Positions 44,695 through 49,969 of a stretch of 64,000 nt of DNA are shown piece by piece. The DNA is from Kordiimonas sp. SCSIO 12610 (GTDB taxonomy: Bacteria > Pseudomonadota > Alphaproteobacteria > Sphingomonadales > Kordiimonadaceae): assembly GCF_024398015.1 (NCBI RefSeq), contig NZ_CP073747.1, positions 1,622,501 through 1,686,500 of the forward strand. Reading direction: 5' to 3'. A program made the translations under genes and the position numbers. Positions within the stretch are counted from its first letter, which is position 1, and each line of letters begins with the position of its first letter. A model generated the notes under the pieces. The model was not told the DNA's origin and searched no databases. It was given only the letters and a program-made list of their open reading frames with translations.

Positions 44695-44770
44695 ACTAAA
44701 GATTATTCATCACGCCTTCAATATTTTTGCTCACATTTTAGTGAAATATTTACTAATTGGCCTGCATATC

Positions 44771-44782
44771 TGTTCATGAACA
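44771..44782. promoter_or_regulatory. Perfect 12-bp palindrome upstream of the porin operon
   Basis: TGTTCATGAACA is self-complementary and lies 99 bp before the GTG of the porin gene (44881). It may be a binding site for a dimeric regulator; no consensus is recognised. It precedes the larger palindrome at 44815-44852 by 32 bp. Confidence 0.5.
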
Positions 44783-44814
44783 TTAACAAAAAATCCTAGC
44801 AAAACTGCGGGACT

Positions 44815-44852
44815 CATAACTTTTGTTCTTAGTACTATAACCAAAAGTTATG
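44815..44852. promoter_or_regulatory. 38-bp nested palindrome upstream of the porin operon
   Basis: CATAACTTTTG (44815-44825) and CAAAAGTTATG (44842-44852) are perfect 11-bp inverted arms. Their centre, 44833.5, is also the centre of an AGTACT palindrome (44831-44836), so two dyads are nested. The right arm ends 28 bp before the GTG start. It could be an operator for a tetrameric or dimeric regulator, or a 5' leader hairpin. Confidence 0.65.
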
Positions 44853-44880
44853 CTTGGATGGAAATCAGCGGAGTATTAAC

Positions 44881-46347
44881 GTGGGCATCAAAACGATCCT
44901 TGGATCAACAGTATCAGCAACCGTTCTTTTGGCAACTGGTGCAGTGGCAGAAAGCCTAGATCCAATTGAGCCAATCACTCAAAGTCAATATCAAGAAACG
45001 AAAAGCAGTGCTTGTGCAAAACCTGGAAATCCATACAAAGGCGTATTTTATGCCAATGATTTTCGGTACCTTGAGCAAGAATGTTATACAGGCGAAGGCG
45101 ATGACGCGCTAACCAAGTTTGGTAACAGCCTTAAAAACATCAAATTACGGGATGATATTACTCTTGATATTGGTGGTCAGTACCGTTTGCGCTGGCACAC
45201 TGAAAATAATCATGCCGGCACGCGCCTGAACGGTGAAGATAATGATTTTCTTCTCAGCCGCTTGCGTGTTTACGGTAGCCTGCGGTTTGGTGACCATGTT
45301 CAGGTTTATGGTGAAATCATTGATGCTGCCAGTATTGGTGAAGACCGCCCGCCGCGCGGTATTGAAGTTGACCGCTGGGACCTTTTGAATGGTTTTGTCG
45401 ATGTGAACTTTGACGTTGCCGACACAAAAATCAACGTGCGTGCAGGCCGTCAGGAATTGCAATTTGGCCAGCAGCGTCTTATTTCGCCGCTTGATTGGGG
45501 AAATACCCGCCGCGCATTCGATGGTGTCCGTGTAACGGCGAAAAGAGGCGATTTTACGTTTAATGCGTTCACGGTTAGCCCGCGTACAGTTTTGCCAAAT
45601 GACAGTAACCCAACAGACCGAAGCCAGGACTTTGATGGTCTTTCGCTTCAGTATAATATCCCGGGTCATGAATTTGAGCTTTATAGCCTGAGATACGATG
45701 AAGATGATCCAGAGCGGACACGTTTTGATTATTACACAACTGGTCTTCGCTGGAAGGGCCGTGAAGGCAATGTGCTCTTTGAAGCTGAAGGTGGTATACA
45801 GCGTGGTACGTTTGGACCGCAGGCTCTGAGCGCAGAATATCTTACACTTGGCCTTGGTTACGATTTCAAGGATGTAGCGTGGAAGCCGACAGTGTGGGCA
45901 TACTATGATTATGCGAGCGGCGACGACGATCCAAACGACGGTGTTGATGGCCGCTTCCGCCAGCTATTCCCACTTGCCCATGCATGGCTTGGCCTGATTG
46001 ACCTTGTTGCACGTGAGAATATCGAAGCGTTTAGAATCAGTGCCGTAACACGCCCTGCAAAAGGCGTCACATGGGTTAATCAATTCCATAAATTCAACTT
46101 GGCGTCTGCCCAGGAAGGCTTGTTTAACGCAGGTGGCGGTCGTATTCGCTTTGACCCGACAGGTCAGGCAAACTCCGACGTTGGGTTTGAGTATGACACG
46201 TTCGTCAACTTCAAGCTTCTACAGCGCATGAGTTTGATTGTGGGTTATTCACACTTTGCTGGCGGTGATTTTATCGACGCAACAAATCCACAAGGTGTAT
46301 CTGGTAACGCTGATTTCTTCTACGTTCAGTGGACAACTAACTTTTAA
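44881..46347 (+). CDS. Alginate-export-family outer-membrane porin
   Basis: 488-residue protein with a signal peptide (residues 1-24, TVLLATGAVA before ES). The rest is beta-barrel-like: alternating aromatic and polar residues, with GGQYRLRWHTENN, RLRVYGSLRFGDHVQVYGE and a C-terminal FFYVQWTTNF ending in a final phenylalanine, the usual OMP end. This fits the Alginate_exp/AlgE-like porin family. A GTG start at 44881 has CGGAG 9 bp before; an upstream TTG is unsupported. It probably lets a polysaccharide or oligosaccharide or small acid through the outer membrane. First gene of a three-gene operon with gaps of 19 and 9 bp. Confidence 0.85.
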   Translation: MGIKTILGSTVSATVLLATGAVAESLDPIEPITQSQYQETKSSACAKPGNPYKGVFYANDFRYLEQECYTGEGDDALTKFGNSLKNIKLRDDITLDIGGQYRLRWHTENNHAGTRLNGEDNDFLLSRLRVYGSLRFGDHVQVYGEIIDAASIGEDRPPRGIEVDRWDLLNGFVDVNFDVADTKINVRAGRQELQFGQQRLISPLDWGNTRRAFDGVRVTAKRGDFTFNAFTVSPRTVLPNDSNPTDRSQDFDGLSLQYNIPGHEFELYSLRYDEDDPERTRFDYYTTGLRWKGREGNVLFEAEGGIQRGTFGPQALSAEYLTLGLGYDFKDVAWKPTVWAYYDYASGDDDPNDGVDGRFRQLFPLAHAWLGLIDLVARENIEAFRISAVTRPAKGVTWVNQFHKFNLASAQEGLFNAGGGRIRFDPTGQANSDVGFEYDTFVNFKLLQRMSLIVGYSHFAGGDFIDATNPQGVSGNADFFYVQWTTNF

Positions 46348-46366
46348 TCCGTAAAGGCAATCGCTC

Positions 46367-47272
46367 ATGTTTAAATTAGTATCAAGTATAGTAATTTTTG
46401 CAGGCGTTCTTGGGTGTTCGACTTCCGCGAACGCCCAGGCGACACCGTCTGATGTATTGGTTTCGGTTGAAACGGCGCAGAATGAGCTGCGCCTTTTGTA
46501 TGATGCAGATATGCAGGAAGTACCTTCAGCGAAGGTCACATCATCTGCGCCCAGACGACCAAGGCACGTTTATTTTAAAGCGCGGGAAGTCTATCAGAAA
46601 GTTAAGGCCTTGAAGGAAATGAATGGCCTGACTATGGCTGATTTACCCGAGGTGCCAAAACGTGAAATTCGACCAACAGAAGTTAAAGAACTGGTCGATA
46701 ATATCAGAAAAAACCTTGGCGATATTAAAGCGAAATATTTCGTTGTTTCAGAGGCAACAACTGCGGCAAAGAAAAATGGTAAGGGGCCAACGGATGTTTA
46801 TCTTGGCTTAACTTACACAAGCCAGTTAATCGACGGCCTCGATATGCCGAATGTGGTTCCAAACGATGTGTACCGCGTGGCACTTGCGGTTCTGGAGGAA
46901 GCACGTGTGATTTCCAGAGCGCAAAACGGATCACGTAGTGAAGCCGAGCTTGAATTGGTCGCAACAGGCAAGAAGCCGGTTGATGTGTATAATAACGGCG
47001 AAACACTTCTGAATTTGATTAGTGATATGTCTCAAAACAAAGAGGGGTATGAAATTCCTGCGGGTGTTGTTCTTCCGAATAGGCCATCAGGAAATATTAC
47101 ACCGGGCCATGTCATGGACTTGATGAGCAACACGCTTGCAGAACTCAGCGCGCTTAAAGCGAAACTTGGTATCGCTGAAAGTGCTGCAAACCAGCCCGCT
47201 CAAGCCGGGAAAACACCATCAAACGTATTTGATGTGATTGAAACAACCAAAGCTGTTCTCTCAGGCATATAG
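46367..47272 (+). CDS. Secreted protein with eight internal repeats
   Basis: 301-residue exported protein of no recognised family. The N-terminal signal peptide ends at ANA before Q25 or as a lipobox around VLGC17. The mature protein consists of eight repeats anchored on a Pro-x-(Asp/Asn/His/Glu)-Val-(Tyr/Phe/Leu) motif with prolines at residues 27, 65, 103, 141, 165, 204, 246 and 284. The first four are exactly 38 residues apart, the rest 24-42. Each repeat continues with a helix containing a hydrophobic ladder, as in PTDVYLGLTYTSQLI and PSNVFDVIETTKAVL. It lies 19 bp after the porin and 9 bp before the chemoreceptor gene, so it is probably a periplasmic partner of one of them. Confidence 0.7.
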   Translation: MFKLVSSIVIFAGVLGCSTSANAQATPSDVLVSVETAQNELRLLYDADMQEVPSAKVTSSAPRRPRHVYFKAREVYQKVKALKEMNGLTMADLPEVPKREIRPTEVKELVDNIRKNLGDIKAKYFVVSEATTAAKKNGKGPTDVYLGLTYTSQLIDGLDMPNVVPNDVYRVALAVLEEARVISRAQNGSRSEAELELVATGKKPVDVYNNGETLLNLISDMSQNKEGYEIPAGVVLPNRPSGNITPGHVMDLMSNTLAELSALKAKLGIAESAANQPAQAGKTPSNVFDVIETTKAVLSGI

Positions 47273-47281
47273 GTGGGGATT

Positions 47282-49234
47282 ATGTTAGAACAAATTAAAA
47301 ATATGATGTCAGGCCTTAATGGTAAAATTCTGACACTTGCGGGATTACCAGTGATCGTCATCGGATTGATTGCCTTCATCGGGAATACGATCATCAGTGG
47401 GACTTTCTCGTCTACCCAGGAACAATTGGAAACCTTGAATAGTCAGGTTGCCCAAGCGGATAAATTATCAACTGTCGTTGAAACATCAAACGCTCAGGCA
47501 CAGCGGTTGGCAGCAGATATTGCCCGTACGCACCAAACTATGTTGATCACCCGGAACGCTGGGCTGGCAACACAAACGGTTACCAAAAAGCAAACATTGG
47601 CTGAGGAACTAAAGTCGCTCAATGCATCTGTATCTGCCCTTAGGTCTTTCCTTGAAAAAGGCGGCTATGTTCCTGCCAATATCGATCAAGCGCTAGCAGA
47701 GACATCGGAAGCGAAATTTAATTTGGATAGCCGGAAAATATTTTTCCAGCTTGTTCGTCTAAGTGAAACCGTTGCTAACCAGTTTGATCTGTTTGCAAGT
47801 GCGAATGGCCGAACAATTTCGTTGGCACAGGCGGGCAACTTTGCAGGTGCGAATGCAAACTTTCAATTCGAAGAAACAGCGCGTTTAAATGCGTTTAATG
47901 GCGGGCTTGCTCGTCTTGCAAATGCGCTTGAAGGTTCGATTGTAGAGCTGAAACGTCAAACTGATCTTGAGCGTACGACCCTTAATGAAATGTCTGGTGA
48001 TGATATTTCCAGCACTATTGTTTTCGTCATGATCTTAATTGTTATTTTGATCATAGCTATCATTTTCGGCGCTTCCTTCTTTACATCAAAGGTGATCATC
48101 ACCCCAATCCGTGCTCAGGTTGGTGCAATGAACGAACTTGCGGCAGGCCGTATGGATGTGGATATTCCTGAAGCCAAAGATACTGACTTGGCGCAGATTG
48201 CCAAAGCCCTATCTGCCTTTAAAGCTGGTTTGGTTGAGAAAGCTGAGCTTGAAGAACAACAAAAGCAAGCGGAAGCCGAAGAGCGCGCACGTCAGGAAAA
48301 CGAACAAAAACTTGCTCGTGAACGCGAAGAAGAAGAGCGTGAGCGTGAACGCCGCGCAAGCGAAGAAGTTCGTGAACGTACTGAACGCATGGAAGCATTG
48401 ATCAGCGGGTTCGAGACAAGTATTGGTGATGTTCTGGCATCTGTTGCTGACGCATCAAACGCACTTGAGCAATCAGCAGGCACGATGCGCCAGGTTGCAT
48501 CCGACAGTGAAATTCAAAGTAGTGAAGTTGCTGCGGCCTCTACGCAGGCATCGTCGAACGTATCCTCAGTGGCAGCAGCCAGTGAAGAGATGGCAGCATC
48601 AGTGCAGGAAATCAGTCGTCAGGTTGTGACCTCTAGTGATATGACGCGTCAAGCAACATCACAGGCGGAAGAAACTGATAAACTGGTTCAGAAACTTGCT
48701 GAAAATATTTCGAAGATTGATGATGTTGTAACCCTTATCAATGATATCGCGGATCAGACAAACCTACTTGCTTTGAACGCGACCATTGAAGCTGCGCGGG
48801 CAGGGGACGCCGGTAAGGGGTTTGCGGTTGTAGCATCGGAAGTAAAAGCCCTCGCGAGCCAGACAGCGCAGGCAACTGATGATATCCGCCGTCAAACCAT
48901 GACTGTTAAAGGTATGAGTGACGAAGCATCCCGGGGTATGGCAAGCATGCTTTCTGTGTTCCAGCAAACAACCGAGATTGCGGGATCAATCGCGGCAGCG
49001 GTTGAAGAACAGAACGCTTCAACGATAGAAATATCGCAGGCTGCTGGCGAAGCTGCAAACAGTACGGATAGGGTTAGCCTGAATATCGGTGACCTTAAAA
49101 ATGGTACACAGAATGCACGCTCTGCATCCGAGCAGGTATTTGAAGCCTCATCACTATTGTCATCGCAAAGTGAAAACCTTCAGCAAGTTGTGGAGAGTTT
49201 CCTCCGTGATATTGCTACTGCGCAGTCGGCATAG
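47282..49234 (+). CDS. Methyl-accepting chemotaxis protein with periplasmic sensor
   Basis: 650-residue chemoreceptor. A first membrane helix (about 15-37, [17 protein letters not shown]) and a second (about 243-265, [17 protein letters not shown]) enclose a periplasmic helical domain of roughly 200 residues with no Cache or PAS motif recognised. A HAMP domain ([19 protein letters not shown]) follows and a coiled coil, then the signalling domain with [28 protein letters not shown]. The start ATG 47282 follows GGGG by 3 bp. It is the third gene of the porin operon. A terminator at 49269-49305 ends the operon. No che genes are near. Confidence 0.93.
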
Positions 49235-49268
49235 TTCGCTTTACCGCACAGTATATTGACAAAATTAT

Positions 49269-49305
49269 AAGCCTGTCCTTTGATAGATCAGAGGGCAGGC
49301 TTTGT
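49269..49305 (+). terminator. Intrinsic terminator after the porin-repeat-chemoreceptor operon
   Basis: AAGCCTG (49269-49275) pairs with CAGGCTT (49296-49302), extended inward by CCT/AGG and TGAT/ATCA segments with two internal mismatches. It is followed by TTGTTT and lies 34 bp after the stop at 49234. Confidence 0.8.
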
Positions 49306-49351
49306 TTATGGAGCCAATTATTTTTCTGGTTCGATAATTTGGGGAATGGCA

Positions 49352-49969
49352 ATGAAAAACAAAACCGAATATATCGTTTCGTTAACCGCGATGGTTACGG
49401 CGGTTGTTGCTGTTTTTGTGGCAATTCTTCAAACGAACGTTATGAAGGAAGAAAGCGCAGCCGAACGGGAGCATATGCGCCTTTCGGTAACGCCCTCAAT
49501 GTGGATGTCCCGTTCGATCCTTGATCGCGGTCAGGAAAACTTTTCTACCTATTCCTATGAATTCAAAAATCAAGGTTTGGGCCCCGCAATTGTTGAAAAA
49601 TTTACCATCGAGTACGACGGCAAGTATGCGGTTGATTGGTATGATTTATTCAGTAAAGTCAGCAGTGATATCGACGGTGAAGACAAAATAAAAGGACGCT
49701 TGTTTCCTGCGAATACATCAAGTGTTTCACCGGGACATGTTATCCCGGCGGGTGAGGCTGTAACCCCCTTACAGCTCAATAATGATCTAGAAATCATCAC
49801 TTTACTTCTGAAGGGCAATGACAAGCTTAAAATATCGCTTTGTTATTGTTCGTTTTATAATGATTGCTGGAATGTTTCAGGACTGAATACGCGGCCAGAG
49901 CCTGTGAAGATGTGCAAATCAGAAGCACCGGATTTTAATAGTTCATCGTTGAGAGTTAGTGCTGGGTAA
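49352..49969 (+). CDS. Hypothetical membrane-anchored protein
   Basis: 205-residue protein with one N-terminal hydrophobic segment (about residues 8-30, VSLTAMVTAVVAVFVAIL), then a soluble beta-rich domain facing the periplasm. The domain includes MRLSVTPSMWMS and LSLCYCSFYNDCWNV with paired cysteines. I recognise no family. Start at ATG 49352, with GGGG 7 bp before; ATG 49346 has the site too near. Its stop overlaps the 3' end of the convergent immunity gene by 14 bp. Confidence 0.6.
   Translation: MKNKTEYIVSLTAMVTAVVAVFVAILQTNVMKEESAAEREHMRLSVTPSMWMSRSILDRGQENFSTYSYEFKNQGLGPAIVEKFTIEYDGKYAVDWYDLFSKVSSDIDGEDKIKGRLFPANTSSVSPGHVIPAGEAVTPLQLNNDLEIITLLLKGNDKLKISLCYCSFYNDCWNVSGLNTRPEPVKMCKSEAPDFNSSSLRVSAG

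Follow-up and report, generated by a model that had tools for sequence, protein, structure and literature searches.

The genes described here lie in a stretch of 64,000 nucleotides (positions 1,622,501 to 1,686,500 of contig NZ_CP073747.1, in the following called the window) from the alphaproteobacterium Kordiimonas sp. SCSIO 12610, whose genome is a single contig of 3.50 Mb. Three genes encode an outer-membrane porin, a secreted protein of eight sequence repeats (the repeat protein), which is the main subject of this analysis, and a methyl-accepting chemotaxis protein (MCP). Reading of the open reading frames (ORFs) revealed that the three genes follow each other in tight succession on the same strand (Table 1). 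The porin stop codon is separated from the repeat gene by 19 bp, and the ATG start codon of the MCP gene, which is preceded by the sequence GGTGGGG, follows after another 9 bp; use of an alternative GTG start at 47273 would reduce this gap to 0. The longest porin ORF starts at TTG 44854, but the GTG at 44881 is the more likely start, as it is preceded by GCGGAG and followed by a signal-peptide-like stretch. The spacing points to one putative transcript for all three genes. A first-pass annotation made from the DNA sequence had described a presumed operon with these gaps, an upstream palindrome, a terminator behind the third gene and an eight-repeat protein between a porin and an MCP, and all of these features are borne out by the ORF coordinates and the searches described below.

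Table 1. Features of the three-gene cluster and its flanks; positions refer to the window.
Feature	Position	Strand	Basis
Conserved block ahead of the operon that the sister species shares; probable promoter region	44744..44795	+	Alignment of window 44695-44960 with L006 5545-5795
Inverted repeat that may form a 5'-leader hairpin or serve the three genes as an operator	44815..44852	+	CATAACTTTTG ... CAAAAGTTATG
Outer-membrane porin, Alginate_exp family (PF13372), signal-peptide-like N-terminus	44881..46347	+	Pfam 1.3e-70; sequence reading for start codon and signal peptide
Secreted eight-helix repeat protein, 301 amino acids	46367..47272	+	Signal peptide (about residues 1-23) read from the sequence; AlphaFold2 model
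Repeat 2 (residues 65-85), best conserved of the eight: PRHVxQKAxEVxxKVxxLR	46559..46621	+	Alignments A2 and A3
Methyl-accepting chemotaxis protein (alternative GTG start 47273)	47282..49234	+	MCPsignal 1.6e-29
Predicted periplasmic sensor domain between TM1 and TM2, all helical	47384..48016	+	Hydropathy, alignment A7 with four partners, AlphaFold2 model
Intrinsic terminator after the MCP gene	49269..49302	+	15-pair stem, TGTTT tail

The repeat protein carries eight P-x-[DNHE]-V motifs, which start at residues 27, 65, 103, 141, 165, 204, 246 and 284, compared to a mean of 0.35 and a maximum of 4 motifs in 20,000 shuffles of the mature protein. A confident AlphaFold2 model based on an alignment of 13 sequences (mean predicted local distance difference test score, pLDDT, 87.9; predicted template modelling score, pTM, 0.84) is all-helical and free of strands, with each of the eight motifs beginning one helix; the two-lobed alpha/beta fold of bilobal binding proteins is thus not what is predicted for this protein. 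The export-type N-terminus suggests that the repeat protein is exported. The signal region also contains the sequence VLGC, but the sister protein has a glutamine in place of the cysteine, which leaves a lipoprotein unsupported. Searches with the repeat protein yielded no Pfam match over the cut-off, including TPR, HEAT and similar helical repeat families, no match in NCBIfam, which was searched with the window proteins, or in PHROGs, and no significant sequence match in the PDB. Foldseek returned no match with an E-value of 0.001 or better, although a missing match is no proof of a new fold, and the best VIA-align Z-score of 6.0 over 104 residues falls in the range that the tool calls ordinary. 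Weaker candidates were judged to be chance matches between helical proteins, namely Asparaginase (0.022, under the cut-off) for the window protein and PexRD54_WY (7.8e-05, 22.9 bits against a cut-off of 27 bits) and phrog_13662 (0.0021) for a doubled homolog, L018. A role as a defence system was likewise discarded, since PADLOC returned just PglZ at 0.059. No description of the family was met in titles and abstract openings of open-licence articles in PMC, which is weak evidence of absence.

The MCP signalling domain reaches 103.4 bits against a cut-off of 34.6, and hydropathy peaks at residues 19-37 and 249-267 indicate two transmembrane (TM) segments around a periplasmic domain. The HAMP domain after TM2 scores 22.7 bits in the window and 24.2 bits in the sister species (locus L006), under the cut-off of 25 bits, and 41.2 bits, over the cut-off, in the related locus L007. 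The periplasmic domain carries the motif RT[IL]xLx(5)FxxAxxNFxFEE. No Pfam sensor domain over the cut-off was found in the window MCP, with RPW8 (5.9e-05, under the cut-off) judged to be a helical chance match, and Foldseek gave no match with an E-value of 0.001 or better for the sensor domain; comparison with the PDB yielded only weak helical matches, including NarQ and the MCP2201 ligand-binding domain. CheA is encoded in the genome of the window.

Homologs of the repeat protein were found in five of 59 genomes of relatives with a single-sequence search and in five of 98 with the A3 profile, the nearest named relative being an uncultured Kordiimonas (L012), whose repeat protein is 80% identical. 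Every genome count given here includes the genome on which the respective search was centred. The narrower A1 profile matched two of 385 genomes of Alphaproteobacteria, and the family was detected in 23 of 369 genomes of Gammaproteobacteria (the class of an Oceanospirillum; some matches are weak), in 5/249 genomes of Campylobacterota (the phylum of a Sulfurimonas), in 5/24 genomes of Nitrospinota and in 9/196 relatives of the genome G589. Named loci include Kordiimonas laminariae, Oceanicola sp. S124, three Oceanospirillum species, a Sulfurimonas and a Gallionella. No plasmid match was found for the repeat protein, and spread by plasmids was dropped as an explanation. In total, 58 repeat genes were inspected, with Alpha- and Gammaproteobacteria, Campylobacterota and Nitrospinota represented; 49 form a first set and nine a second set, which was taken from relatives of G589. 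Three gammaproteobacterial matches (G538, G609 and G638; E-values of 4.8e-5 to 1e-4) were left out, and the count omits L008, a near-copy of L007, as well as L012 and L014, which duplicate the loci L006 and L007.

Of the 58 repeat genes, 49 are directly followed on their strand by a sensor gene, whose product is an MCP, a diguanylate cyclase, a histidine kinase or a sensor of another kind (44/49 in the first and 5/9 in the second set, assigned by hand). Automatic labelling of the first set, in which MCPs, kinases and GGDEF proteins were recognized by comparison with sequences of the analysis, found a downstream same-strand sensor after 37 of 47 repeat ORFs, compared to 22 of 411 other ORFs of at least 120 amino acids in the same loci (Fisher p 6e-30). 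Inspection added L016, whose MCP is masked by a spurious ORF, L108 (HAMP-GGDEF), L109, where the MCP is broken into two frames, L119 (Cache-HAMP-PAS) and the second repeat gene of L116, which has a PAS sensor, together with L106 and L124, whose repeat ORFs had been hidden by the overlap filter. In the second set, an MCP gene lies downstream in L161 to L164 and a split one in L168, and no downstream sensor is present in L165, L166, L167 and L169. The gap to the next same-strand ORF, whether it encodes a sensor or not, is at most 25 bp in 39 of 45 cases, with many genes overlapping. According to hydropathy, 43 of 45 partners possess an N-terminal TM segment and a second one further on, and a few show an extra, weaker peak.

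Some neighbourhoods contain additional genes. In two related genomes, an RNase HII gene is located directly upstream of the repeat-MCP pair (L099:3865-4434 and L100:7508-8077), and in a metagenome-assembled genome of Gallionella a zeta-toxin-like gene (L022:4441-5013) separates the repeat gene from the sensor kinase gene. At L120:5828-6598, which was obtained in the Nitrospinota search, the repeat protein and a HisKA fragment share one frame, either as a genuine fusion or through a chimeric assembly.

The repeat proteins also vary together with the periplasmic regions of their partners. On a tree of 41 repeat blocks of more than 240 residues with a classified partner, a first labelling by profiles, which set apart the helical 'fee' kind, to which the window MCP belongs, a Cache kind and the remaining partners, required three changes compared to a mean of 17.5 for shuffled labels; this labelling is partly circular, as the profiles were built from the 12 partners of doubled forms and five partners of the window kind. 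In a blind check, the periplasmic regions were therefore cut by hydropathy and clustered by phmmer at an E-value of 1e-3, and the repeat proteins were not used. Of the 45 partners, 44 entered this check (the ORF of L116_5757 lacks an N-terminal TM segment) and formed clusters of 21, 7, 6, 4 and 2 regions plus four singletons. With singletons omitted, 37 of the 41 tree rows were labelled, and the four clusters represented among them required three changes, the minimum for four labels, compared to a mean of 15.8 and a minimum of 14 in 200 shuffles. The clades of the repeat protein agree with the groups of sensor domains without exception among the 37 labelled rows. A doubled form of the protein with around sixteen repeats, in whose second block the repeat 2 motif PRHVxQKAxEV is also legible, requires one change on the repeat tree, and the partners of all 12 doubled proteins fall into the Cache cluster. 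Pfam detected HK_sensor_dom_bact in nine and dCache_1 in eight of these 12 partners; among the 33 partners of shorter forms, HK_sensor_dom_bact and dCache_1 were detected in nine each, a four-helix-bundle (4HB) match in three and MASE3 in one. L013, which lies inside the group of the window, encodes a kinase instead of an MCP, and since its periplasmic part is homologous to that of the window MCP, the output appears to have been exchanged while the pair of repeat protein and periplasmic domain stayed together.

Gene linkage, the export-type N-terminus, the predicted fold and the congruence of repeat clades with sensor regions together argue that the repeat protein is probably a periplasmic co-receptor, or a sensing adaptor, of the transmembrane sensor encoded by the adjacent gene; from these we infer docking, a ligand, the direction of the signal and a role of the porin. 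The exported repeat protein would fold into eight helices as one unit, with P-x-[DNHE]-V capping every helix, and would dock on the periplasmic domain of the MCP through a putative contact. The docked protein, with or without a ligand, could then shift the helical periplasmic domain, and TM2 and HAMP would relay the signal to the signalling tip of the MCP and from there to CheA. Proteins of this kind in relatives would serve Cache-type and other two-TM kinases and cyclases; the sensors' varied outputs therefore suggest an interchangeable output around a conserved core, the periplasmic pair. In the genus of the window, the porin of the same cluster probably admits the sensed molecule.

Several observations weigh against a co-receptor. 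No same-strand sensor gene lies directly behind nine of the 58 repeat genes: a CHASE kinase is encoded upstream instead in L015, the kinase gene follows one gene further in L022, no sensor was recognized among the neighbours seen in L093, L105 and L166, L165 has only a porin gene, TonB receptor genes are found in L167 and L169, and the repeat protein of L120 runs into a kinase fragment. The sensor of L009 has multiple TM segments, and one partner in L116 shows a single TM segment. Moreover, the family is rare in five of the surveys given above, from the A3 profile search of relatives to the Nitrospinota, and the periplasmic domains of the partners belong to at least four unrelated-looking kinds, all of which would have to fit one docking mode. 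A cassette that is inherited as a unit can also yield linkage and congruent trees when its products do not touch, and the repeat protein might be an envelope-stress or structural protein that is merely co-regulated and co-inherited with the sensor. The contact is putative and derived from gene data, and the nine genes without a directly downstream sensor would fit such a protein; however, repeat clades match the periplasmic homology groups on all labelled rows, even though the output has changed in L013, and the gaps between the genes are tight to the point of overlap. Linkage without contact is thus considered the least probable of the readings weighed here, and contact is the simplest reason for the cassette staying a unit.

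The first-pass annotation had further proposed that porin, repeat protein and chemoreceptor form a single sensory pathway and had asked whether a porin gene and an MCP gene invariably flank the repeat gene. The latter arrangement occurs in only a few cases, and a constant presence of the porin was rejected, as the usual partner is the sensor. As for the pathway, the link between repeat protein and sensor appears well supported by gene linkage and co-variation, and the porin can be retained in part: an outer-membrane barrel gene of one of four kinds adjoins or lies within the cluster for at least ten of the 58 repeat genes, a lower bound, as the Pfam scan covered only some of the flanking genes. 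The barrel link is a minority feature, yet it recurs in separate lineages and gene orders and is not limited to the genus. A PF13372 porin is encoded upstream in the window, L006 and L007 and, without an MCP, in L165. The gammaproteobacterial locus L097 has the order repeat gene, MCP gene and porin gene, with gaps of 12 and 15 bp and PF13372 after the MCP. Chance hardly explains this second trio, by our own estimate rather than a computed test, because the porin family was seen once or twice per genome in the single-sequence search of relatives. An OprD gene lies divergently at a distance of 98 bp in L117. A TonB receptor gene is located behind the repeat gene in L167 and L169 and 382 bp ahead of it in L123; receptors of this type are frequent in many genomes of the sort examined.

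Individual barrel loci show further features. L097 contains a gene for a FadL/TodX-type outer-membrane transport protein two genes upstream of the repeat gene (L097:9477-10952), and in L165 (4920-7054) the repeat gene is flanked by the upstream porin gene and a convergent adenylate/guanylate cyclase gene downstream. The repeat gene is followed by a TonB-dependent receptor gene, with no sensor directly beside it, at L167:6894-9269 and L169:2959-5271. In L009 (3562-10492), from a genome of the same family as that of the window, the repeat gene has a multicopper oxidase-CopB fusion on one side and a MASE3 hybrid kinase on the other, which suggests copper as a signal in this locus.

These barrels raise a different possibility, namely that the repeat protein is a trans-envelope adaptor: instead of detecting a free ligand, it would respond to the state of an outer-membrane barrel and pass the occupancy of this barrel on to the inner-membrane sensor. 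The four kinds of barrel beside at least ten repeat genes (PF13372, the CopA-CopB fusion in L009, OprD and TonB receptors) and the three loci with a barrel and no sensor (L165, L167 and L169) are in line with such an adaptor; however, no barrel was recognized beside most repeat genes, some TonB receptors may be neighbours by chance, given how common they are, and the porin tree contains no single clade of repeat-linked porins. On this tree of 29 porins, the label required four changes compared to a mean of 4.8 for shuffled labels, and forcing four of the repeat-linked porins together was not rejected (approximately unbiased test, p-AU 0.325), so that the tree neither shows nor excludes a putative common origin. 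A trans-envelope adaptor is regarded as a doubtful alternative. Eleven of 12 plasmid stretches entered the tree; the twelfth, L170, as well as L140 from the search of relatives, dropped out because the ORF filter detected no match in them, and L143, L144 and L146 from the same search were not used. The porins of the window, G001 (88% identical to the window porin), L097 and L165 are each other's best BLAST scores when compared to ten other PF13372 proteins and that of L007, and the best plasmid scores in tblastn are lower (114 for the window porin and 117 for the L097 porin). The L007 porin is only distantly related, with a PF13372 match that is partial but over the cut-off. A scan of viral contigs with the porin gave no match.

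The porin in the same cluster could also indicate a ligand-binding protein that mainly serves uptake or scavenging, with the sensor as a secondary client, as is the case for maltose-binding protein and Tar. A FecCD permease gene 484 bp upstream in L118, a substrate-binding-protein-like gene directly upstream in L021 and sugar-ABC-system-like genes upstream in L016 (the latter two named by eye) point in the same direction. However, no permease was recognizable among the ORFs of 42.0-52.5 kb of the window, and transport genes are a minority among the neighbours seen, with sensors being the rule, which makes a primary role in uptake improbable. For the co-receptor favoured here, it is plausible that the sensed molecule enters through the porin. 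A ligand such as alginate or uronates, which the first-pass annotation had named as inducers to test, is unsupported and derives from the name of the porin family. No alginate biosynthesis genes were recognized by eye among the ORFs of 42.0-52.5 kb, the part of the genome that was read, and a search for PL7 alginate lyases was empty, with the controls silent likewise.

The inverted repeat upstream of the porin gene has a spacer of 16 bases, matches once in the window and was found in none of 100 shuffles. Folded alone, it is more stable than shuffled sequences (z -2.80), and the sister species carries a hairpin of a different sequence in the same place (L006:5633-5675, z -2.87); longer flanks weaken the energy signal to z -0.51 in the window and -1.60 in the sister species. 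An RNA hairpin fits this leader element better than a fixed operator does, because the position is kept but the sequence differs between the two. A consensus scan found no sigma-70-like site within the conserved block further upstream. At the other end of the cluster, the terminator has the longest stem of nine terminator-like sites detected in the scan, compared to a mean of 5.1 in shuffled sequences. The ORF behind it (49280-49969) encodes an N-terminal hydrophobic stretch and matches no Pfam family over the cut-off. No RNA families or tRNAs were found in the window.

Taken further, and with considerable reserve, the eight-helix P-x-[DNHE]-V proteins might represent a third component that is general to transmembrane signalling in bacteria and has so far gone undescribed: a periplasmic module, which is sometimes doubled to around sixteen repeats and serves MCPs, histidine kinases and diguanylate cyclases alike. 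In several lineages, this component might link an outer-membrane barrel to an inner-membrane sensor, and the cell would sense what the porin admits or holds. Indirect sensing via a secreted partner is already known for bilobal binding proteins. If a family of all-helical partners is indeed spread across several phyla, many 'orphan' kinases and chemoreceptors would miss a component, and ligand screens with the sensor domain alone would overlook ligands. The co-receptor idea is directly testable because the pairs are encoded by adjacent genes.

Among known systems, the binding-protein-dependent sensors TorT-TorS, LuxP-LuxQ, XylFII-LytS, MBP-Tar and PstS-CtpL come closest in principle: according to the review PMC6321045, a secreted protein that attaches to the periplasmic domain of the kinase or chemoreceptor conveys the signal indirectly, and several types of sensor domain are involved. 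Their ligand-binding proteins are described there as bilobal, whereas the repeat protein is predicted to consist of helices only, one for each repeat, was not assigned to a named family by the searches and binds its partner only putatively. SPH1118, the pectin-binding protein of Sphingomonas sp. A1, is a periplasmic protein required for chemotaxis to an acidic polysaccharide (PMC7055323), and a polysaccharide link of the window protein would be hypothetical; however, SPH1118 is a predicted part of an ABC transporter according to the same source, and no transporter is recognizable beside the window gene. The window porin is a full-length member of the Alginate_exp porins, with a match spanning residues 104-479 of its longest ORF, and differs from them by being joined to a repeat protein and an MCP. 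Finally, the periplasmic region of the window MCP resembles the four-helix-bundle sensor domains of other MCPs in its long helices predicted between TM1 and TM2, but it stands apart from them in the Pfam and Foldseek comparisons described above.

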